From Janthinobacterium silvisoli (lineage in GTDB: Bacteria > Pseudomonadota > Gammaproteobacteria > Burkholderiales > Burkholderiaceae_D), in assembly GCF_014200725.1 (NCBI RefSeq), contig NZ_JACHCL010000002.1:1240001-1304000 (forward strand): DNA of 64,000 bases. The letters run 5' to 3'. Positions 7,571-34,803 of this stretch are shown piece by piece; the stretch's first letter is position 1, and the number at the start of each line of letters is the position of its first letter. The position numbers and the translations under genes are program-made. The notes under the pieces were generated by a model, which saw nothing but the letters and a program-made list of their open reading frames with translations, had not been told where the DNA came from and did no database searches.

Positions 7571-8098
7571 GTGGTTAGGAAAGCCTAACTACCTCACATT
7601 GTCCCTTATTAGGATGTCCATGAAAACCGGACTAGCTCAAACTGACCCTCGCATCCGCGATTAGTGCTGGTTTCTACTACGCATAACGCATGAGTTCGTG
7701 TCTGAAAGGCAGAACTGGCCCTCGTATCGGCCCTCGTATCCCGCAGGGTGCGCAGGTCCCCTGCTCGCTTCCGACAGGCAATAAAAACGCCCTAAGGTAA
7801 TTTCTTTATTTCCTGGCGGAAGCGGTGTAAGCCACATAACTAGGTTTTAGGCCATTTTAGCAATATAAATCCATAATCATACCTACTATGCTACCTACAA
7901 TAGGAATCGCTCAGTTACACTATAACTCACGACTTGATAAGGCGAAACGTCTCAATTTTAGAGAATTAAACTCCAAAATCTTTGCTTTTAGGGAAGCGAG
8001 TACAACATAGAATTTTCTTATCCACATGAAAAAAATCCTTCAGGTCATAAATATTATTTTTTGCATCTTAAATTAGCTTTTTCAACTCAACCAAAAAA
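7571..8098. other. Intergenic boundary of the tRNA-Ser hot spot
   Basis: No gene. GC-rich core sequence ends just after the MocR gene. Positions 7640-7827 hold repeat block A (annotated separately). After about 7835 the sequence becomes AT-rich, marking the edge of the Kiwa-bearing insert. Confidence 0.7.
7640..7827. repeat. Repeat block A: decayed tRNA-Ser flank plus inverted copy of the block B/C start
   Basis: Positions 7742-7827 match 14192-14279 (the 3' flank and last 14 bases of tRNA-Ser), with a perfect 27-bp core at 7761-7787; the terminator stem in this copy has mutated away. Positions 7697-7724 are a perfect 28-bp inverted copy of 10951-10978, and similarity continues with mismatches back to about 7640. 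The block therefore joins two pieces that lie apart or in opposite orientation in blocks B and C, consistent with an old integration or rearrangement scar. Confidence 0.8.
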
Positions 8099-9019
8099 TT
8101 ATGCCATTTTATTTTTAGCCAAACTATCATAATCATTTTGAGTTAATGTTGATTTAAGATAATCATCATTTAGTAGTTTAATTAATTTCTTAACACTATC
8201 TTTTGATGTTAATTGAATGCGCGAATTTACAATATTAAATCCTAATATTGATTGATTCAATACTGCAAATTGCAAGATAGTAGCAGGAGGCAATGCTAAA
8301 ACCTCACTTTTTGCAACTCGAAGAAAATCTTTCTGTGGCGCCAGTCCATTCAAGAGATACGACTTTACATCATCAACAATGTTGAGAGCGATGATAACAT
8401 TAGAAGTTTTTCGTTGAATTTGTTTAGCAACAACATAAAATTTAAAAGATTTTTCAAACTTCTTAAACTCATTTATATAGAAATAATCATCAAATAAAAT
8501 CAAATCAAATCCGCCAGAAATCTTCAACACATCGCTAGGCAAATATGTCAACCTATCTCCAGCCTTAAGAAGCATTATCTGATTCTGCTTAACATAAGAA
8601 ACTGGATACATCTGCTTAAAAAATATCACTTTTGAAACTGCCGACGAAATCCTTATTGCAATAGTTTTCACATCAGAAATTTCATGATTTTTAAATGAAA
8701 AATCACCTACATTCTGGGCAACCAATAAATCTTCAAGAGGTTTAAAGTCAACTGGTTTATCTGGCAAATCATAGCCAAGCAATACGTCTGATCTAGCATC
8801 AATTTCTGAAAGGGGCAACGTACACAAAGCGTCATTCTTAAAGAATTTTCGCACACTTTCAACGTAACTTTCACAAATTCCATCGGTAGATTTTTGATCC
8901 AAATCTCCACGTAAATAAATTAACTCACCATTCTCCTCAACACCTAAAAAAACCTCGAAATTCATACCATCCACGAAAATTGCTTCTAATCCCGCACTCA
9001 AATTTTCAATGTTTTTCAC
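8099..9019 (-). CDS. kwaB: Kiwa anti-phage system protein KwaB (DUF4868)
   Basis: 306 residues, the usual KwaB size. DUF4868 features are visible: the GGFDLILFDDYFYI segment at about 169-183 followed by a phenylalanine-rich FKKFEKSFKF, and the C-terminal KLLNDDYLKSTLTQ...YD block. GTG start at 9019 with AGGATATGAT upstream, 1 base after the kwaA stop, so the two are one operon. In the known system KwaB is the cytoplasmic, DNA-binding effector that acts with membrane KwaA to block late phage replication and transcription. Base composition is strongly AT-rich against the chromosome, indicating recent transfer. The family assignment rests on motif pattern and the partner gene. Confidence 0.85.
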   Translation of the reverse strand: MKNIENLSAGLEAIFVDGMNFEVFLGVEENGELIYLRGDLDQKSTDGICESYVESVRKFFKNDALCTLPLSEIDARSDVLLGYDLPDKPVDFKPLEDLLVAQNVGDFSFKNHEISDVKTIAIRISSAVSKVIFFKQMYPVSYVKQNQIMLLKAGDRLTYLPSDVLKISGGFDLILFDDYFYINEFKKFEKSFKFYVVAKQIQRKTSNVIIALNIVDDVKSYLLNGLAPQKDFLRVAKSEVLALPPATILQFAVLNQSILGFNIVNSRIQLTSKDSVKKLIKLLNDDYLKSTLTQNDYDSLAKNKMA

Positions 9020-9020
9020 A

Positions 9021-9611
9021 TCATATCCTTATGGCTTTTTTTGCAAAATAAATTGTGTGATCCAAAGGCAAATAATTTACAGAATCACCAGCTTCAAGCC
9101 TCTCATCAGATATCAAAATGATTTCCCTTCCATCGATTTTCGCTGAGAAAATCTTAAATCCTAAAAGTGACAAAGTAGGATTAGCATAAAAAAGATTTGT
9201 TCTTATATATATAGCCCCCAATATAATCAAGGTAATTCCTAGATTTATTATTTGCCGGACATTTTCCAATGCAAACCCAACAAGCGGAATCACATATGTG
9301 GCCAGAAAAACCAGATGTTCTGCTCCTTTGTCCTGTATTTCGGATATAATTTTTGGACCTTGCTTCGCACCATTTATTAGATACTTAAATCTAAAATAAA
9401 AAAAGCTAGAAACAACAAGAAAGAATATGCACATTAAAGGCAAAAAATTATTTGAAACAATTTTTAAAATTTCTGCCTTTGAAGCAAGAGAGCATTGAAA
9501 ACATATATCTATACTTATTTTATTGACAAATATCAGTACAAATAGTAACCACAATGACAGGAGATACATACCTATCTTTAGTAGGCGCCCGACTTTAGGT
9601 TCAGCAATCAT
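9021..9611 (-). CDS. kwaA: Kiwa anti-phage system membrane protein KwaA
   Basis: 196 residues with four hydrophobic segments (about 12-30, 52-70, 99-117 and 120-140), followed by a soluble C-terminal tail of about 55 residues (PTLSLLGFKIF, then a strand-rich region ending in KKAIRI). This is the topology of KwaA, which in the characterised system sits in the inner membrane, senses phage infection and recruits KwaB. It is the first gene of a two-gene operon with kwaB. ATG 9611 has only a weak ribosome site. AT-rich composition matches kwaB, so both arrived together. Confidence 0.83.
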   Translation of the reverse strand: MIAEPKVGRLLKIGMYLLSLWLLFVLIFVNKISIDICFQCSLASKAEILKIVSNNFLPLMCIFFLVVSSFFYFRFKYLINGAKQGPKIISEIQDKGAEHLVFLATYVIPLVGFALENVRQIINLGITLIILGAIYIRTNLFYANPTLSLLGFKIFSAKIDGREIILISDERLEAGDSVNYLPLDHTIYFAKKAIRI

Positions 9612-9682
9612 TTATTATGTACGCCATGAATTTTTCTACCGCCCACTGCGTGAGCAAAAAAAAGATGTTCTAATTTCAACAA

Positions 9683-10141
9683 TTAAAATATCTTCACCAT
9701 ACTAGCTATTTGCCGACCCACAAAATACACACTTTGTAACAAATTAAAAAAAGCAACATAAGTTAAATAGAATAAAGTACCTTCCCCCATGGTTTTTCGG
9801 AAACCTACTTCTTCATCGGACACATTATCAGCATAGTTTTCTATGCTACAAAGCCAAGACTGGTCATAGCTCACCAGCTCCCCGGCATCATTGCGGACGC
9901 GCTCGAAACCAGAAAGCGTGAAACGGCCGTCGTTCGCCCACAAAATATGTGGGTCAATCAGCTCATACCCATCGCGCGCGCCTTGGGTCAGCCTGGCGAC
10001 CTTGACCGGGCGCCGCAACCCTTGGTCTGTCACGTCCATGATCGTGAGCATTCCGCGATAGGTCACCGTGTACCGATCCGACAGCATGCGGCGCGGTATC
10101 TCCAGCCCCAGCTTTCGCATCATCACCATCCTGACTTTCAT
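9683..10141 (-). CDS. Unrecognised gene behind a LexA box, possibly chimeric at its 3' end
   Basis: 152 residues if started at ATG 10141; an alternative ATG at 10120 (MRKLGLEIPRRML) has AGGATGGTG upstream. The first two thirds are GC-rich, with a compact pattern (VTYRGMLTIMDVTDQGLRRP, then GYELIDPHILWANDGRFTLSGFER). The last 45 residues are AT-rich and hydrophobic (LFYLTYVAFFNLLQSVYF) like the Kiwa DNA, suggesting that the original C-terminus was replaced at an insertion junction near 9840. It is divergent from the SRAP remnant, and both lie next to the LexA box at 10160, so SOS induction is likely. No domain is recognised; the setting suggests a phage-derived gene. Confidence 0.65.
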   Translation of the reverse strand: MKVRMVMMRKLGLEIPRRMLSDRYTVTYRGMLTIMDVTDQGLRRPVKVARLTQGARDGYELIDPHILWANDGRFTLSGFERVRNDAGELVSYDQSWLCSIENYADNVSDEEVGFRKTMGEGTLFYLTYVAFFNLLQSVYFVGRQIASMVKIF

Positions 10142-10159
10142 CGCATCACCTACAATAAA

Positions 10160-10179
10160 TACTGTATATGCATACAGTA
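10160..10179. promoter_or_regulatory. Consensus LexA (SOS) box
   Basis: TACTGTATATGCATACAGTA has two perfect 8-bp arms (TACTGTAT/ATACAGTA) and matches the proteobacterial CTGT-N8-ACAG consensus at every conserved base. It lies about 20 bp upstream of the 10141 gene and about 33 bp upstream of the SRAP remnant, in the shared divergent promoter region, so it could repress both directions until DNA damage. Confidence 0.88.
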
Positions 10180-10211
10180 TATCAAAGTTAAAAACCAGCT
10201 ATCATTTTTCC

Positions 10212-10909
10212 ATGTGCGGACGTGTTGACATGAGCGAGAATTCGCGACTCTACCTGAATGCCATCGGGTGGACGGACGCCACTATTGACAGCCAGGAGCA
10301 GATGCACTTCAACGTCATTCCCGGCACCTACGTGCCGGTGCTGCGCCTCAACGACAATCAGCCGCACCTCAATGACACCTTTTGGAGCTGCCGCCCTGCC
10401 TGGGCCGCCGCTGCCAAACCTACCCCTGGCAAGAAAAAGATCCCCATCGCGTTCAACGCATGCGTGGAAAAGCTGGCAGACGCCTACTGGAAGCCGCTGC
10501 TACGCGCCGGACGCGGCATCGTCTGCGCGTCGGGCTGGTATGAATGGACGGGGGAAAGGGCCACAAGTAACCCTGGCACACTCACCGCAAAGACCGTGAG
10601 CCGCTGTTCCTGCTCGCGCTCGCCAACTTCGGGCCATTCAAGGAAAACCGCGAGGAAGCGGGCTTCGTCCTGGTCACTGCGGATTCAGTCGGGGGCATGG
10701 TCGACATTCACGACCGCAGGCCCGTCGCCGTCAGCGCCGACGACGCGCGCCGTTGGCTCGATCCCAAGCTGACAACCAACGAGGCCATGCACATCGCGCG
10801 CACGGCTATGCTCGACGCCGACCTGTTCGAATGGCATGCAGTGAGCACGGAATTGAACCGTGGCGTGGATGGGCCGCAGGTAGCGGCGCCACTGACCTGC
10901 GCCGAATAA
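10212..10909 (+). pseudogene. Broken SOS response-associated peptidase (SRAP, YedK/HMCES-like)
   Basis: Begins MCGRVDMS, with the catalytic Cys2 that forms a thiazolidine link to abasic sites in this family, and continues through PAWAAAAK and the catalytic-region motif ASGWYEWTGE. Just after this the frame shifts by one base near 10555, and the restored frame carries a TAA at about 10567 (probably a mutated CAA). It then continues normally: LFLLALANFGPF, DIHDRRPVAVS (active-site His) and a C-terminus ending at 10909. Both lesions remove the second half, so DNA-protein crosslinking of abasic sites is almost certainly lost. A LexA box in the promoter fits the family's SOS link. A sequencing error could explain the shift but not easily the stop as well. 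Confidence 0.85.
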
Positions 10910-11361
10910 CGAAAGACCCTGGGCTGCGATACAGACCCGCCAGCGGGAAGCGAGGGCCAGTTCTGCCTTTCAGACACGGACTGATGCGTTGTACGCCGTA
11001 GAAGCCAGCTCAGTCGAAACCCTGATTAGAACCACCAAGCGCGCCGCAGGCGCGCAAGGCTGCCGCGCAGCGGCAGCAGGTGGGCGATTCGAACTCACGA
11101 ACAGTTTAACCCGTCGCTAGTTTTCAAGTCTTCAAAATACCCTTTATATTTCAATAATTTACGTACTATTTCATTCCGCACACATGACCTCATTTCCGTC
11201 TTACCCTGCCACTGTAGTAACTAGCCTGAGTCAGTGATGCGGAAACGATTTCTCCCGTGTGCAGCTACTTTAGACAAGGTGTTTAGACTGTATGAAAGCT
11301 AAAAATAAAAACAATCAATAAACTTGGAGATTCTCGCTCATCATCGCCACACATCCTCGCC
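10910..11361. other. Gene-free stretch containing repeat block B
   Basis: No gene supported. Repeat block B occupies 10951-11128. The remainder (11129-11361) is AT-rich 3' flank of the nuclease gene with no clear terminator hairpin. Confidence 0.6.
10951..11128. repeat. Repeat block B with 43-bp copy of the tRNA-Ser 3' half
   Basis: Positions 10951 to about 11075 are a direct repeat of 14011 to about 14140 (block C) with scattered mismatches. Positions 11086-11128 are then identical over 43 bp to 14281-14323, the tRNA-Ser segment from the anticodon loop through the T arm. This is the classical length and location of an attachment-site core for a tRNA-targeting tyrosine integrase, so block B is probably an att scar. 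No integrase gene remains in the window. Confidence 0.82.
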
Positions 11362-13047
11362 CTATTGCGCCCCGTCCAGGGTAGAAGAGATAATATCGTA
11401 CCCATTTTCAATTGCTATGTCATCAACCAGTCTATCAAGCTTTTTGGGTAGAAAAATGTTTTCACGTCGTAGTTGCTTTCGCTGCTTCACTAGATATTCA
11501 ACGTTGTTGCAACGTGAACTTACGTGTGCTCCAAGGGCAAAACAGTAACTGGCCAATTTCCCCTCTTCAGCGACAATATCTGAGGCGAACTCGACCGCCA
11601 AATCGAAATCGTCAACATGGCAACGAAGCGCCATTTTTACAACGCTAGTACGTAGCTTCGGCGCATCGCGATGTTCTATGAAATCACACCAGGTACGAGC
11701 GAAATGTGCATCAGCAGCCGCTCTTCCAAAATGGCGATCATTCACCCCTCTCCGGTGCGACCGTCGCCTGAACTCATTAAGGTCTTTACCACGCTGGAAT
11801 GCATGCCATGCAAGCGGATCTCCATCCTCTTGATCACTCGAATCGATGAGTGACTCCAGCGCAGGAAGCCACGTGAGCGGATGCCATGCTGAAAATGAAG
11901 TAGTGTCCGAAATAACTGGGCGCAAAGTATAGCGCTTTTCCGTACGCCACCTGTTTACATGATCCCCTATCTCACCGAAGCTATCGAAACGCAAAATATG
12001 AGCACTATCGCTTTCGAGCCTTGCTTGAAAATTCGCCCAAGTTCCTTCAGATTCGGATGAATAGGAATCGAAGTTCTCACCGATTTCAAGAGTTCTTAGG
12101 AGCCGCACAGCTGTGTCATCAGTGAGCTCCGTGAATGTGTTTGACCTCGCGAATTGTTCCCTTTCCTTGGCCGTCTTAAAAACTGGAAACTCCTGAGGAC
12201 GACAAGGGTTGCGAATTGCCATCGAGACAAACAACCTGGTCTCCAAGCCATGTGCGAGATAACGTTGCACCTCGTCAAGCAAATACCAAACTATCACAAA
12301 TCCTGAGGCGCGCCCTCTTTCTGCCTCACGAACCAGCCCTACAATTGCGTGCTCAACATGATTATGCAAACAACAAATATGTTCTCTCAAATCCCAGTTA
12401 GGTGGAAGAAAAAAAACCTTTGTATCTACGCTCAAAGCCGTCTCAGGAAATGTCTGAACACTTGCACTAGGAAGTAAATCGGAACGCACCAGTAGAGTAG
12501 GCGTGCATTCCTCTACATCAGGATCCCGATACTCCAAAACGAGAACAGGAATGTGCCGGTGCGCTAACTCAGCAATGGCATGTTTCTCCAGGGGAGCCAA
12601 GCTGGTGGAAATCAGTACGAGGAAAACCTGCGAACCCGGATGTTGCTGAGACAAACAGTTTGTATAGGCAAGCAATTCCGTCCCGAACTCACGAGCAGCC
12701 TTCTTGCTACGTTTAAGTTCCACGATGATAAAAGCTCCACTAATCTCATCCTCGAGAACCAGATCTGGCTTGAGAACCATACCGGTGACATTGGAGATGT
12801 TTATATTCGCGCTTTTGAACCTAGGTTCGAAGAGGCTTTTAAGTACACGGCAGGCCTCGCGAGCTGAGCGGTGTCGAAATCGGGAAAGACCGGCGACACG
12901 TCCGTACTGCTCGACCTCGCACTTCATTTCTTGCCCCAGTGAGCTTTTCTCATACCTCAAAACACTATATAAATCGCTCACAACAAAATTTTGCCTATTA
13001 TCCGTCAGTTGAACTATCCAAGATTGAATTTCGCTTTCTTTGGTCAT
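11362..13047 (-). CDS. Solitary PD-(D/E)XK nuclease-domain protein, candidate defence effector
   Basis: 561 residues from ATG 13047, with AAAAGGAG 8 bases upstream. A PD-(D/E)XK core is visible: P94-D95 in LKPDLVLEDE, then E110 and K112 in FIIVELKRSKKA, with a helix EFGTELLAYTNCL after it, as in restriction-type nucleases. Residues about 120-260 continue an alpha/beta fold (VFLVLIST, IPVLVLEY). Residues 260-561 are mostly helical, with no motif I recognise. No methyltransferase, helicase or specificity subunit is adjacent, so this is not a standard restriction system. It lies alone between tRNA-Ser repeat blocks B and C, in the same hot spot as Kiwa. A single-gene anti-phage role is inferred from motif and location. 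Confidence 0.75.
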   Translation of the reverse strand: MTKESEIQSWIVQLTDNRQNFVVSDLYSVLRYEKSSLGQEMKCEVEQYGRVAGLSRFRHRSAREACRVLKSLFEPRFKSANINISNVTGMVLKPDLVLEDEISGAFIIVELKRSKKAAREFGTELLAYTNCLSQQHPGSQVFLVLISTSLAPLEKHAIAELAHRHIPVLVLEYRDPDVEECTPTLLVRSDLLPSASVQTFPETALSVDTKVFFLPPNWDLREHICCLHNHVEHAIVGLVREAERGRASGFVIVWYLLDEVQRYLAHGLETRLFVSMAIRNPCRPQEFPVFKTAKEREQFARSNTFTELTDDTAVRLLRTLEIGENFDSYSSESEGTWANFQARLESDSAHILRFDSFGEIGDHVNRWRTEKRYTLRPVISDTTSFSAWHPLTWLPALESLIDSSDQEDGDPLAWHAFQRGKDLNEFRRRSHRRGVNDRHFGRAAADAHFARTWCDFIEHRDAPKLRTSVVKMALRCHVDDFDLAVEFASDIVAEEGKLASYCFALGAHVSSRCNNVEYLVKQRKQLRRENIFLPKKLDRLVDDIAIENGYDIISSTLDGAQ

Positions 13048-13405
13048 TGCATTGACTCCTTTTCATCAATTCATTGATACAGTGTACTTGATGGCCTCTA
13101 TCACTTAAACAGGCAGAATAGGCACGGGCAACAGAAGGCCAATAAACCTTATTTGGAACATAAAAGCTAACACTTCCATGTCCCCGCCAAAGCAGCACAA
13201 AAATGTTCAAAGTGCGTCAAAATGCGCCAAATCGCACGCCCCCTCTTCGCCCCGCCGCGCCAATCCTCATGCGCCTTCGGCCATGGCGCAAATTTGAGTC
13301 AAAAAATCTCTATATAGCGGGCAAGTGTGGAGGGGGGACAACTGCGCGCGCCGGGCCGAAATCGTCGATTTTCTTGCCTCAACGGCAATATTATTCATCA
13401 GGGCG
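13048..13405. other. Non-coding phage-end-like stretch
   Basis: No gene supported. It contains the promoter of the nuclease gene at its left end. The right part (13190-13400) is GC-rich, with purine-run and alternating segments (for example GGGGGGACAACTGCGCGCGC at 13334-13353) next to the portal-side end of the P2-like remnant, where P2-like phages carry their cos region. Calling it cos is speculative. Confidence 0.4.
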
Positions 13406-13431
13406 TGAAAAAGCCGCCTTATGGGCGGCTT
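13406..13431 (-). terminator. Rho-independent terminator of the prophage remnant genes
   Basis: Stem AAGCCGCC/GGCGGCTT with a 5-base loop, followed on the minus strand by a T run. It lies about 70 bp downstream of the zinc-finger pseudogene end. Confidence 0.75.
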
Positions 13432-13503
13432 ATGCGGTGGCTGGGGCAGTCTGGCACGGCTGGGCTGTCGCGCCCTGCCCTACCAGCTAGTGCAGCGTGG
13501 CGA

Positions 13504-13721
13504 TCATCCTGGCCGCCCGGCGCGGGTCTTGGCCGCTTGCTCCTTGTCGTAATCGTCGCGGCAGTCCACGCCGCAGAACAGCATGGCCGGCGCCAATGCT
13601 TCATCGCAGAAATAGCAGCAGCCATGCGCGCCACCAGGGCGGGACGGCTGCGCACGGCGGCCAGACCGCGCGTGACCTCTGCAAAGATGATCTTATCGGT
13701 GTTGTCTACGTGATCGCTCAT
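13504..13721 (-). pseudogene. Frameshifted small phage zinc-finger protein
   Basis: ATG 13721 opens MSDHVDNTDKIIFAEVTRGL, overlapping the portal stop as ATGA. After about 30 codons this frame loses sense, while a neighbouring frame continues GAHGCCYFCDEALAPAMLFC then GVDCRDDYDKEQAAKTRAG and stops at 13504. The CxxC...CxxxC arrangement followed by RDDYD is that of small TraR/DksA-like zinc-finger proteins found beside portal genes of P2-like prophages. One indel near 13630 explains the split. Intact versions are of unknown function. Confidence 0.65.
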
Positions 13722-14010
13722 TGCCCGCCCTCCTTGGCCAGGCCCAGCTCATACGGCGCGAACTTCACCACTTCCACGCCGGCCCATTCATTGATGGCCA
13801 GGAACTGCGTTTGCAGGGGCACCAGCTCATTGCGGGCGAAGACGTGCGCGGCTGGTTCCACGGCGCCGAAGCCGCCTGCGTTGTTCGGCAAGATGCCCAT
13901 CAGCTGCGGCGGCACGCGGTGCGCGGCCAGCTGGTCGTCGCGCGTTACGCTCTTGATGTTGAAAAATTCGTTCTTGGCGGCCACGTCGGAAACCGGCAGG
14001 ATTTGCGGAG
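13718..14010 (-). pseudogene. C-terminal fragment of a P2-like phage portal protein (gpQ family)
   Basis: About 96 codons remain, reading LPVSDVAAKNEFFNIK, then VTRDDQLAAHRVPPQLMGI, PNNAGGFGAVEPAAHVF and a tail ending near LAKEGGQ. This matches the conserved C-terminal third of PBSX/P2-type portal proteins, which form the dodecameric DNA entry vertex of the capsid. The 5' two thirds are missing: sequence similarity stops at 14010, exactly where repeat block C begins, so the cut coincides with an integration or deletion joint. It is followed by the overlapping zinc-finger pseudogene. Confidence 0.82.
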
Positions 14011-14279
14011 CGAGGGCCAGTTCTGCCTTTCAGGCACAGGCTGATGCAATGGGGACGTAAAAGCCAGCTCAGTCGAAAACCTGATTAGAACCACGAAGCG
14101 CGCCGCAGGCGCGCAAGGCTGCCGCGCAGCGGCAGCGGTTGGAGGATTCGGGGCGGGCTGGGCCGGTAGGCCCAGCCCTTCGAATCTCACACGCAGGGCG
14201 CGCAGGCGCCCTGCTCGCTTCCGACAGGCAATAAAAAACCGCCCGAAGGCGGTTTCTTTATTTCTTGGCGGAAGCGGTG
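14011..14279. repeat. Repeat block C adjoining tRNA-Ser
   Basis: Its left part (14011 to about 14140) is shared with block B, and its right part (14192-14279) with block A. It joins directly to the intact tRNA-Ser gene. A hairpin-rich centre (CGCGCCGCAGGCGCGC and GGGCTGGGCC...GGCCCAGCCC) separates the two parts. It appears to be the most complete copy from which A and B derive. Confidence 0.78.
14233..14255 (-). terminator. Terminator of tRNA-Ser
   Basis: AAACCGCC-TTCG-GGCGGTTT hairpin followed by T residues on the minus strand, about 11 bases after the tRNA 3' end. The copy in block A has lost its pairing. Confidence 0.85.
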
Positions 14280-14355
14280 AGATTCGAACTCACGAACAGT
14301 TTAACCCGTCGCTAGTTTTCAAGACTAGTGCCTTCAACCACTCGGCCACGCTTCC
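14266..14355 (-). tRNA. tRNA-Ser (anticodon UGA)
   Basis: A 90-nt class II tRNA with encoded CCA. Acceptor GGAAGCG pairs with CGCTTCC; the anticodon stem-loop is CTAGT-CTTGAAA-ACTAG with anticodon TGA; there is a long variable arm, and the T arm contains GTTCGAATC. It reads UCA codons. Its 3' half is the attachment target for the islands on its 3' side. Confidence 0.97.
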
Positions 14356-33165: not shown

Positions 33166-34803
33166 TTAGAATGTTTCCCATTCACTCAGGCCAGTCACGG
33201 CAGCCAGCGCTGGCTGCTTGCGGACCACCGCCTGCGGCTGAGTTATCCGCTGCCGCGCCTGCACACCGCCCAGCCTGAACACGCTGACCACCTGCGCCAG
33301 CTGTCCCGCCTGCGTTTGCATGGCCTCGGCCGCCGCCGACGCTTCTTCCACCAGCGCCGCATTTTGCTGGGTTACTTGATCCATCTCATGGATCGCTTGG
33401 TTCACCTGTTCGATGCCAGCGCTTTGCTCTTCGCTGGCTTCGTTAATTTCACCCATGATGTCGGTGACAAAAGCAATACTCTGCACGATGTCTTGCATGG
33501 TGGAACCGGCCTTATTGACCAGGATGGAACCGGCATCGACCCGCTCCACCGAGTCATCGATCAAGTCCTTGATTTCCTTGGCCGCTGCCGACGAGCGTTG
33601 CGCCAGGCTGCGCACTTCGGTAGCGACCACGGCAAAACCGCGTCCCTGTTCGCCCGCGCGCGCCGCTTCCACCGCCGCATTCAAGGCCAGGATATTGGTC
33701 TGGAACGCCAGGCCCTCAATCACGCCGATGATGTCGACGATCTTGCGCGAGGAATCATTGATCGAATTCATGGTCATGATCACTTGCTCCGAGATCGCAC
33801 CGCCCTGGCTGGCAATCTGGGCCGCGTCGCCCGCCAGCTTCCTGGCCTTGCGCGCATTATCGACGTTTTGCCGGACGGTCGAGGTCAGCTCTTCCATTGA
33901 AGAAGCCGTCTCTTCCAGCGAACTGGCTTGCTGTTCCGTGCGCGCAGACAAATCCTGGTTGCCAGCTGCAATTTCACCGGAGGCCGTGGCGATATTGTCC
34001 GTACCCACCCGCACTTCGCCCACGATATTGGCCAGGCTATCGTTCATGACTTTCAGCGCGTGCATCAATTGCCCGGTTTCATCGCGGCTATCGACAGCGA
34101 TCTGGCTGCTCAAGTCGCCCGACGACACCGTTTCCGCCACCTTGACAGCCTGCGCCAGCGGTCCGGTAATCGAACGCGTGATCCAGACGGCAAAAGCGAT
34201 GCCCGTGGCCAGCGCAAGCAAGCCCAGCGCCAGCAAGGTGAGGCGCGTGCTTTGATACGAAGCGAGCACGCCATCGGCAACCTCATCGGCCGCATGAATT
34301 TGCACTTCAGATAACTTTTTGATGGCGTCCCGATACACGAGCGCACTCGGCATGAAGCTGCCATCGAAGATCTGCCGTCCCAGTTCGCGGTCACCCGCAT
34401 GCACGGTCTTGGTCAGGGCGACACGTGCCTCCGTAAAAGCGCTGCGGCGGCTGACCACTTCGGCATACGCGGCCCGCGCATCTGGATTGATCAGGTCAGC
34501 ACCAATCTGCTCTTGCAACTGGGCCAGGCGCGGCAAGTCTTGTTCGATCTGTTGCGCAAATTTTTGCTGATCGGCAGGGTCGGCAGCTTTCCACATGGCT
34601 TCGGTGCGCGTCATATTGACCTGTATCAGTTGCGCCCACTCCGCTACCAGGCGCTGGTTCCTGACCGTGCCATGCACCATGTTTGAGGTCATATCGCTGG
34701 CTGCCTGCAAACGCATGAGGCCGATCACGACCAGCGCCGCCAGCAATAACAAGACCACAGCGTAGCCGACGGCAAGCCGGGTACCGATTTTCAAATTTTT
34801 CAT
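33166..34803 (-). CDS. Methyl-accepting chemotaxis protein with CheR-tether tail
   Basis: 545 residues from ATG 34803 (GGAAGTGAACGC upstream); the longer frame to 35037 lacks a start signal. Transmembrane helix at about 10-30, a periplasmic four-helix-bundle sensor (about 35-190), a second helix ([18 protein letters not shown]), HAMP, and the cytoplasmic signalling hairpin with the invariant tip [20 protein letters not shown]. It ends in EWETF, matching the xWExF pentapeptide that tethers CheR and CheB in high-abundance receptors. Stand-alone gene; ligand unknown. Confidence 0.96.

Follow-up and report, generated by a model that had tools for sequence, protein, structure and literature searches.

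The window, a 64,000-nucleotide (nt) stretch of Janthinobacterium silvisoli DNA (contig NZ_JACHCL010000002.1, positions 1,240,001 to 1,304,000 of the forward strand), carries on its minus strand a gene for an orphan nuclease of the PD-(D/E)XK type, which we call P0001. The gene and the parts of its predicted product lie at the following window positions, with the basis of each assignment in brackets.

11362..13047, minus strand: gene for the 561-residue PD-(D/E)XK orphan nuclease P0001 (open reading frame and translation; profile matches to relatives)
13056..13063, minus strand: Shine-Dalgarno sequence AAAAGGAG, spaced 8 nt from the ATG (sequence)
12508..12864, minus strand: nuclease core, residues 62-180 (invariant columns, AlphaFold core, EndoMS/NucS fold match)
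12763-12765, minus strand: codon of D95 (invariant column)
12718-12720, minus strand: codon of E110 (invariant column)
12712-12714, minus strand: codon of K112 (invariant column)
11938..12465, minus strand: second, alpha/beta domain, about residues 195-370, with G249-F250 and G358 (invariants of a 28-member alignment, predicted strands and helices)
11407..11886, minus strand: mostly helical C-terminal part, about residues 388-547, of low confidence (AlphaFold, profile alignment)

The open reading frame (ORF) runs for 561 codons with its frame intact, has a G+C content of 47.7% against 57.7% for the window, and by DNA search is present in a single copy in the 5.9-Mb genome. The first-pass annotation of this DNA had credited the gene with a strong ribosome site of its own, and AAAAGGAG, 8 nt ahead of the ATG, bears this out.

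D95, E110, and K112, which that annotation had picked out as a nuclease core, are invariant in every aligned relative and fall on a predicted core alpha/beta fold in the D...ExK arrangement of the PD-(D/E)XK superfamily. Fold comparison places the predicted core closest to the nuclease of EndoMS/NucS, with further matches to FokI, BspD6I, PaqCI, BsmI, and McrBC-type nucleases. Judged by alignment and predicted fold, the three residues are a genuine PD-(D/E)XK site. The same annotation had followed the core with about 300 residues of helical domain; this description fits only about residues 388-547, which are predicted, with low confidence, to be mostly helical, whereas residues ~195-370 are predicted to be alpha/beta, and the counterpart of that region in the relative L020 is predicted better than in P0001 itself. 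Alignment and modeling thus show a protein built from an N-terminal PD-(D/E)XK nuclease with intact active-site residues, an alpha/beta domain conserved in the family, and a C-terminal part that varies and could be aligned to relatives in profile matches only up to about residue 424.

Library searches support the earlier description of the protein as undescribed, in that no convincing match emerged from Pfam, NCBIfam, or PADLOC. P0001 has no Pfam match at an expectation value (E) ≤ 1, two weak Cas4 matches over the nuclease core in PADLOC (E 0.019 and 0.036), and NucS as its sole, weak NCBIfam match (E 0.2). As a lone query it found nothing by sequence in the PDB at E ≤ 10, nothing in phages or viral contigs, and three distant matches in plasmids; a plasmid match in J. 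lividum lies at 33831-34079 of NZ_CP139977, and there is one other match in the same genus (G019 contig 2, 33831-34082). A sample of 399 genomes from the order, searched with P0001, and one of 369 genomes from the class, searched with a four-row profile, each returned only the window's own gene. These samples are no guide to rarity; a wider profile route was needed to recover relatives, and the host's own family, Oxalobacteraceae, does contain them in Rugamonas and Collimonas, in species that may fall outside the samples drawn.

A profile seeded by the three plasmid matches recovered 33 loci in genome records. By first-start lengths, 22 of these relatives have 697-892 residues and eight have 377-482; the other three (L022, L036, and L039) are short fragments. 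They come from Pseudomonadota, Bacillota, and Actinomycetota and, in metagenome bins only, from Campylobacterota, Bacteroidota, Planctomycetota, and Acidobacteriota. Profiles built without P0001 from 24 long and nine short relatives match it at 93 bits (residues 3-424) and 60 bits (residues 68-363), respectively; because both matches reach beyond the core, homology extends well past the nuclease. Thirteen positions are invariant among the 28 aligned members, P0001 included: E4, D95, E110, K112, R119, T123, E124, L125, Y128, P137, G249, F250, and G358. When fragments are added (34 sequences), the first ten, E4 through P137, remain invariant and the last three nearly so. The invariance of R119, T123, E124, and Y128 is partly built in, since the pattern used in the profile search demanded them; D95, E110, K112, E4, and P137 were not demanded. 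P0001 has the family's arrangement of an N-terminal nuclease followed by an alpha/beta domain with GF and G motifs.

Known families touch these relatives only weakly. Ten of them searched against PADLOC gave weak matches in four, the best to PDC-S02 (E 2.5e-4), and against NCBIfam one weak match, outside the nuclease; the best Pfam matches of the 28 members are to YhcG_C (5.6e-5) and HSDR_N_2 (3.8e-4), in four members each. In long members, the 90 residues at the C terminus match UreE (E 0.0038 and 0.018), in a part for which P0001 has no alignable counterpart. Some copies are broken: that of Pseudomonas cerasi by an insertion sequence and that of G850 by a split between contigs, and the G833 copy has one stop within an otherwise full-length match, although the same count elsewhere may include the terminal stop. 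The literature yielded no paper tied to the family; an unnamed family is hard to find by words, and an earlier description may exist. One member, L031, comes from a record titled Candidatus Diapherotrites, an archaeon, and is nested within Pseudomonas sequences; judged by its sequence, it is probably a binning error or a contaminated metagenome bin.

The gene sits in an integration hot spot at a serine transfer RNA (tRNA) gene, whose features are as follows.

14266..14355, minus strand: tRNA-Ser(TGA), the integration site (ARAGORN; repeats; adjoining integrases in three of 19 same-genus regions)
11072..11131, no strand assigned: copy of the tRNA-Ser 3' part, an integration scar at the edge of the nuclease unit (direct repeat D2, with 88% identity to 14267-14326)
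7783..7827, no strand assigned: another copy of the tRNA-Ser 3' end, at the edge of the Kiwa unit (direct repeat D4, 87%)
10949..11091, no strand assigned: copy of the tRNA 3' flank 14009-14150 (direct repeats D1 and D5, 92-93%)
8099..9611, minus strand: Kiwa operon, the neighboring unit in the same hot spot, with KwaB at 8099-9019 and KwaA at 9021-9611 (NCBIfam, PADLOC)

The P0001 gene lies between the scar at 11072 and the tRNA-Ser gene, so that, as first proposed, copies of the tRNA-Ser 3' part stand on either side of it. Kiwa, identified by NCBIfam (KwaB 7.2e-70, KwaA 2.8e-59) and also by PADLOC, lies between the two scar copies; the claim that both share one hot spot holds, with Kiwa as a separately bounded unit. 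Among the ORFs examined, we found no plausible partner gene within the scars that bound P0001 and no methyltransferase or specificity gene in the island, in agreement with the earlier view of a solitary gene lacking a restriction partner.

A query from the flank on the tRNA side matched 40 of 40 genus genomes, the window's own included, and regions from 19 of the 39 other same-genus genomes were compared. The site is empty in L096 and L097, where the left flank (to about 7575) and the right flank (from about 14030-14045) are about 25-41 nt apart. L095, from the genome with the most similar flank (96%), has both flanks with other cargo between them and no match to 7830-10944 or 11185-13207 (blastn, E ≤ 1e-10, pieces >60 nt). 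The left flank also occurs in L098, L099, and L106, at least 1.6 kb away, and was not found in the fetched stretch of the other 13 regions. Integrases adjoin the tRNA-Ser gene in L103, L107, and L109 (three of 19, with one query integrase). The hot spot therefore carries variable cargo, the P0001 gene included.

Relatives are also found on mobile carriers. A short member occurs in 18 E. coli plasmid records of 110-127 kb; plasmids of about this size with CobT/AAA genes are probably phage-plasmids. On one of these plasmids (L071, 9147-11206) the short member stands 26 nt downstream of an AbiGi-annotated antitoxin gene on the same strand, and the two possibly form an operon in that branch. The one relative found in viral contigs, a 408-residue member in L073 (6797-9056), begins 1 nt after a P2/HP1-type integrase; the HP1 integrase match has an E of 1.4e-61, and the P2 part of the label is our assumption. 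This arrangement resembles known prophage defense hot spots: in the portion of PMC9122126 used here, P2-like phages are described as having such hot spots, one of them, in a P2-related phage, between repressor and integrase.

To describe the surroundings of the 33 loci, we collected as many as five mechanically called ORFs from either side, for a total of 278. At E ≤ 1e-15, the 134 ORFs of L008-L023 matched 169 PADLOC models and the 144 ORFs of L024-L040 matched 290; among the matches listed, the most widely matched were AriA, GajA, Old, PtuA, mads, and type IIG restriction models. Control regions on the relatives' own contigs (14 of 20 fetched, a type I restriction system among them) gave 88 models for 137 ORFs. 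These counts are of models rather than genes and are inflated by redundant models. Of 20 ORFs from 19 loci, chosen by size and clustering rather than randomly, 12 in 11 loci match PADLOC at 1e-10, to GajA, AriA/PDC-M62A, PD-T4-6, MkoA, REase_I, mads, and PDC-M54A.

Because the model counts are inflated and the control shares contigs with the relatives and includes a type I system, we placed more weight on a distance test over the whole genomes of all 33 carriers, in which fragments of one gene were merged, genome sizes were rounded, and contig breaks were ignored. GajA lies within 8 kb of a relative at three of 15 loci (expected 0.044) and within 20 kb at four of 15 (expected 0.110); the test misses one or more instances, among them L029, where GajA is strongly matched 4 kb away from the family member. 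PDC-M62A is near a relative in two of four (expected 0.019). The proximity of these two families is unlikely by chance, even allowing something for their having been chosen post hoc. To set the scale, prokaryotic genomes carry on average 5.2 antiviral systems, according to the excerpted text of PMC9090908. With both defense and mobile-element neighbors present, the relatives do not show the lack of such association that the first-pass annotation had named as grounds for giving up a defense role.

Clustering of the four nearest ORFs on each side across the 33 loci showed no partner common to most. The largest cluster has five loci, at varying positions and strands and as first neighbor in three. 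A related ATPase is the first neighbor at three loci; an AAA-type pair occupies the first and second downstream positions in L014 and L034, whose ATPases match PDC-M62A, and relatives of both genes of the pair are encoded next to the Rhizobium member, on the opposite strand. The single-gene character thus holds across the loci, the exception being the AbiGi neighbor on the E. coli plasmid. A DUF4238 gene precedes the Azoarcus member. On a Janthinobacterium plasmid (L006, 684-7259), a 2191-residue protein with a sub-threshold NACHT match, possibly a further defense protein, is encoded directly upstream of a family member.

From protein sequence, predicted structure, and analogy, we consider P0001 to be probably a mobile single-gene defense nuclease of an unnamed family, Shedu-like in its working but not Shedu. 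For the wider proposition, our judgment is evenly balanced: the relatives may constitute an unnamed family of single-protein, DNA-targeting defense nucleases that join an N-terminal NucS-type PD-(D/E)XK core to a new sensor domain, span seven phyla and several length classes, and travel with P2/HP1-type prophages, plasmids, and tRNA islands. We infer that DNA is the substrate of P0001 and that it has anti-phage activity with a trigger. The nuclease would stay inactive until the rest of the protein, with the alpha/beta domain as the putative sensor, encountered some hallmark of infection or of the invading DNA; candidate triggers are DNA ends, intermediates of replication or recombination, or an unusual base. 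Once triggered, it would cut DNA and stop a phage or plasmid either directly or by killing the cell. If so, P0001 would add a one-gene nuclease defense family missed by the annotation libraries searched, offer a compact form of ~380 residues that is easy to test, and help in asking how a free nuclease with no methylase, guide, or partner tells invading DNA from its own.

Several observations weigh against this interpretation. The model of P0001 is moderately confident (predicted local distance difference test, pLDDT, 66.5), no counterpart to its last ~137 residues is detectable in relatives, and in the tree it has the longest branch among the members compared (4.22), with its placement unsure. 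Control regions also match PADLOC, so that enrichment by model count is modest at most. Eight of the 20 picked neighbor ORFs have no PADLOC match at 1e-10, the families in the distance test were picked after being seen near the gene, and REase_I, near a relative in one of 23 (expected 0.089, P 0.085), shows no significant excess. The earlier claim of a defense-island association stands for the window and less cleanly for the relatives. INPHARED phage records gave no match to four queries. The L073 stretch matched 28 of 5,426 E. coli genomes, in no case with a copy spanning more than 80% of the query, and among the 15 matches listed it was covered at the regulator end only, at most 11%.

Other explanations account for part of this evidence. 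P0001 might be a modification-dependent (type IV-like) or methylase-less restriction endonuclease whose alpha/beta domain reads a base modification or sequence at which the nuclease cuts; this would still be defense, through base recognition rather than through sensing of DNA structure or infection, and we regard it as unlikely though worth considering. The FokI- and McrBC-type fold matches speak for it, as do the missing methyltransferase in the island and the lack of any gene family alongside most relatives, but the fold matches cover the nuclease core only and no modified-base-reading domain was recognized in Pfam. An EndoMS/NucS-like nuclease for DNA repair or element maintenance, which mobile elements would carry to support their own replication or stability, is distinctly improbable. 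The first-pass annotation had counted a structural match to a housekeeping family against a defense role, and the best fold match of the core is indeed to a mismatch repair endonuclease, echoed in the sole, weak NCBIfam match; yet the fold match is confined to the catalytic domain, P0001 falls far short of the NucS sequence model, and presence and absence within the genus at the hot spot, together with changing defense neighbors, are unlike a repair gene.

We give little credence to the idea that P0001 is the toxin of a two-part abortive-infection or toxin-antitoxin system and that its partner was lost or is encoded elsewhere in the genome. The AbiGi-annotated neighbor on the E. coli plasmid and the DUF4238 gene in Azoarcus would fit such a pair, but no family accompanies most of the 33 relatives, and P0001 has no plausible partner within its scars. 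Equally slight is the chance that P0001 is a decayed relic that has kept its reading frame and lost its function: the long branch, the unalignable C terminus, and the broken copies among its relatives point that way, whereas P0001, itself one of the 28 aligned members, keeps 13 of 13 invariant positions along with an intact frame and a good ribosome site, and neither the other frames nor the downstream DNA contain traces of a longer C terminus.

Among known systems, Shedu is the best functional analogue of a defense role for P0001, being likewise a single-gene PD-(D/E)XK defense nuclease. In the sections of PMC12904381 drawn on here, DNA-end binding by another domain relieves autoinhibition of Shedu, and the DNA-end clamp of EcSduA is N-terminal; by our own reading, the SduA nuclease comes after the clamp. 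In P0001 the nuclease is N-terminal (residues 62-180) and the other domains follow, so that it would act like Shedu with the domain order reversed, and a Shedu-type relief of autoinhibition is for P0001 a proposal by analogy. No SduA/DUF4263 match was found to P0001 at E ≤ 1 in Pfam, PADLOC, or NCBIfam, which we assume hold models of those names, nor to ten relatives (PADLOC, E ≤ 0.1) or the 28 members (Pfam, E ≤ 0.05). With neither a family match nor an N-terminal clamp ahead of the nuclease, two defining features of Shedu are lacking, and P0001 was therefore not assigned to it.

Assignment to EndoMS/NucS was likewise rejected: P0001 scores 10.7 bits against the cutoff of 216 for NCBIfam NucS (NF003270), and the matching part of EndoMS is the C-terminal half of a short protein (chain residues about 125-240), whereas the P0001 nuclease is N-terminal, with about 380 residues after it. 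The phage defense candidate PDC-S02 of PADLOC weakly matches the nuclease part of L012 (the E of 2.5e-4 given above) and, more weakly, that of L014 (0.0047), over about 60-100 residues, mostly towards the model end; P0001 does not match it at E ≤ 1. The Cas4 matches of the core are far from significant; those models are about 160 positions long. YhcG_C and HSDR_N_2 are PD-(D/E)XK nuclease domains, the superfamily to which we take HSDR_N to belong, and neither is matched by P0001. A type I HsdR was rejected, as Pfam shows no helicase family in P0001 and no HsdM or HsdS was seen among the island ORFs examined. Kiwa shares the tRNA-Ser hot spot with P0001 and differs in having two genes in a separate unit with its own bounding repeat; KwaB, according to the passages cited from PMC12904381, binds DNA without cleaving it.

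Two further stretches of the hot spot are of note. Beside Kiwa, an SRAP-family gene at 10068-10909 appears frame-disrupted, its SRAP match ending at 118 of 214 profile positions, and it is followed, with an overlap, by a short ORF in another frame (10697-10909). A probable prophage remnant occupies 13203-14060. Its 88-residue ORF (13718-13984) gives a weak match to a phage portal (E 0.15) and, over 86 residues, shares 98% identity with part of the L095 site.
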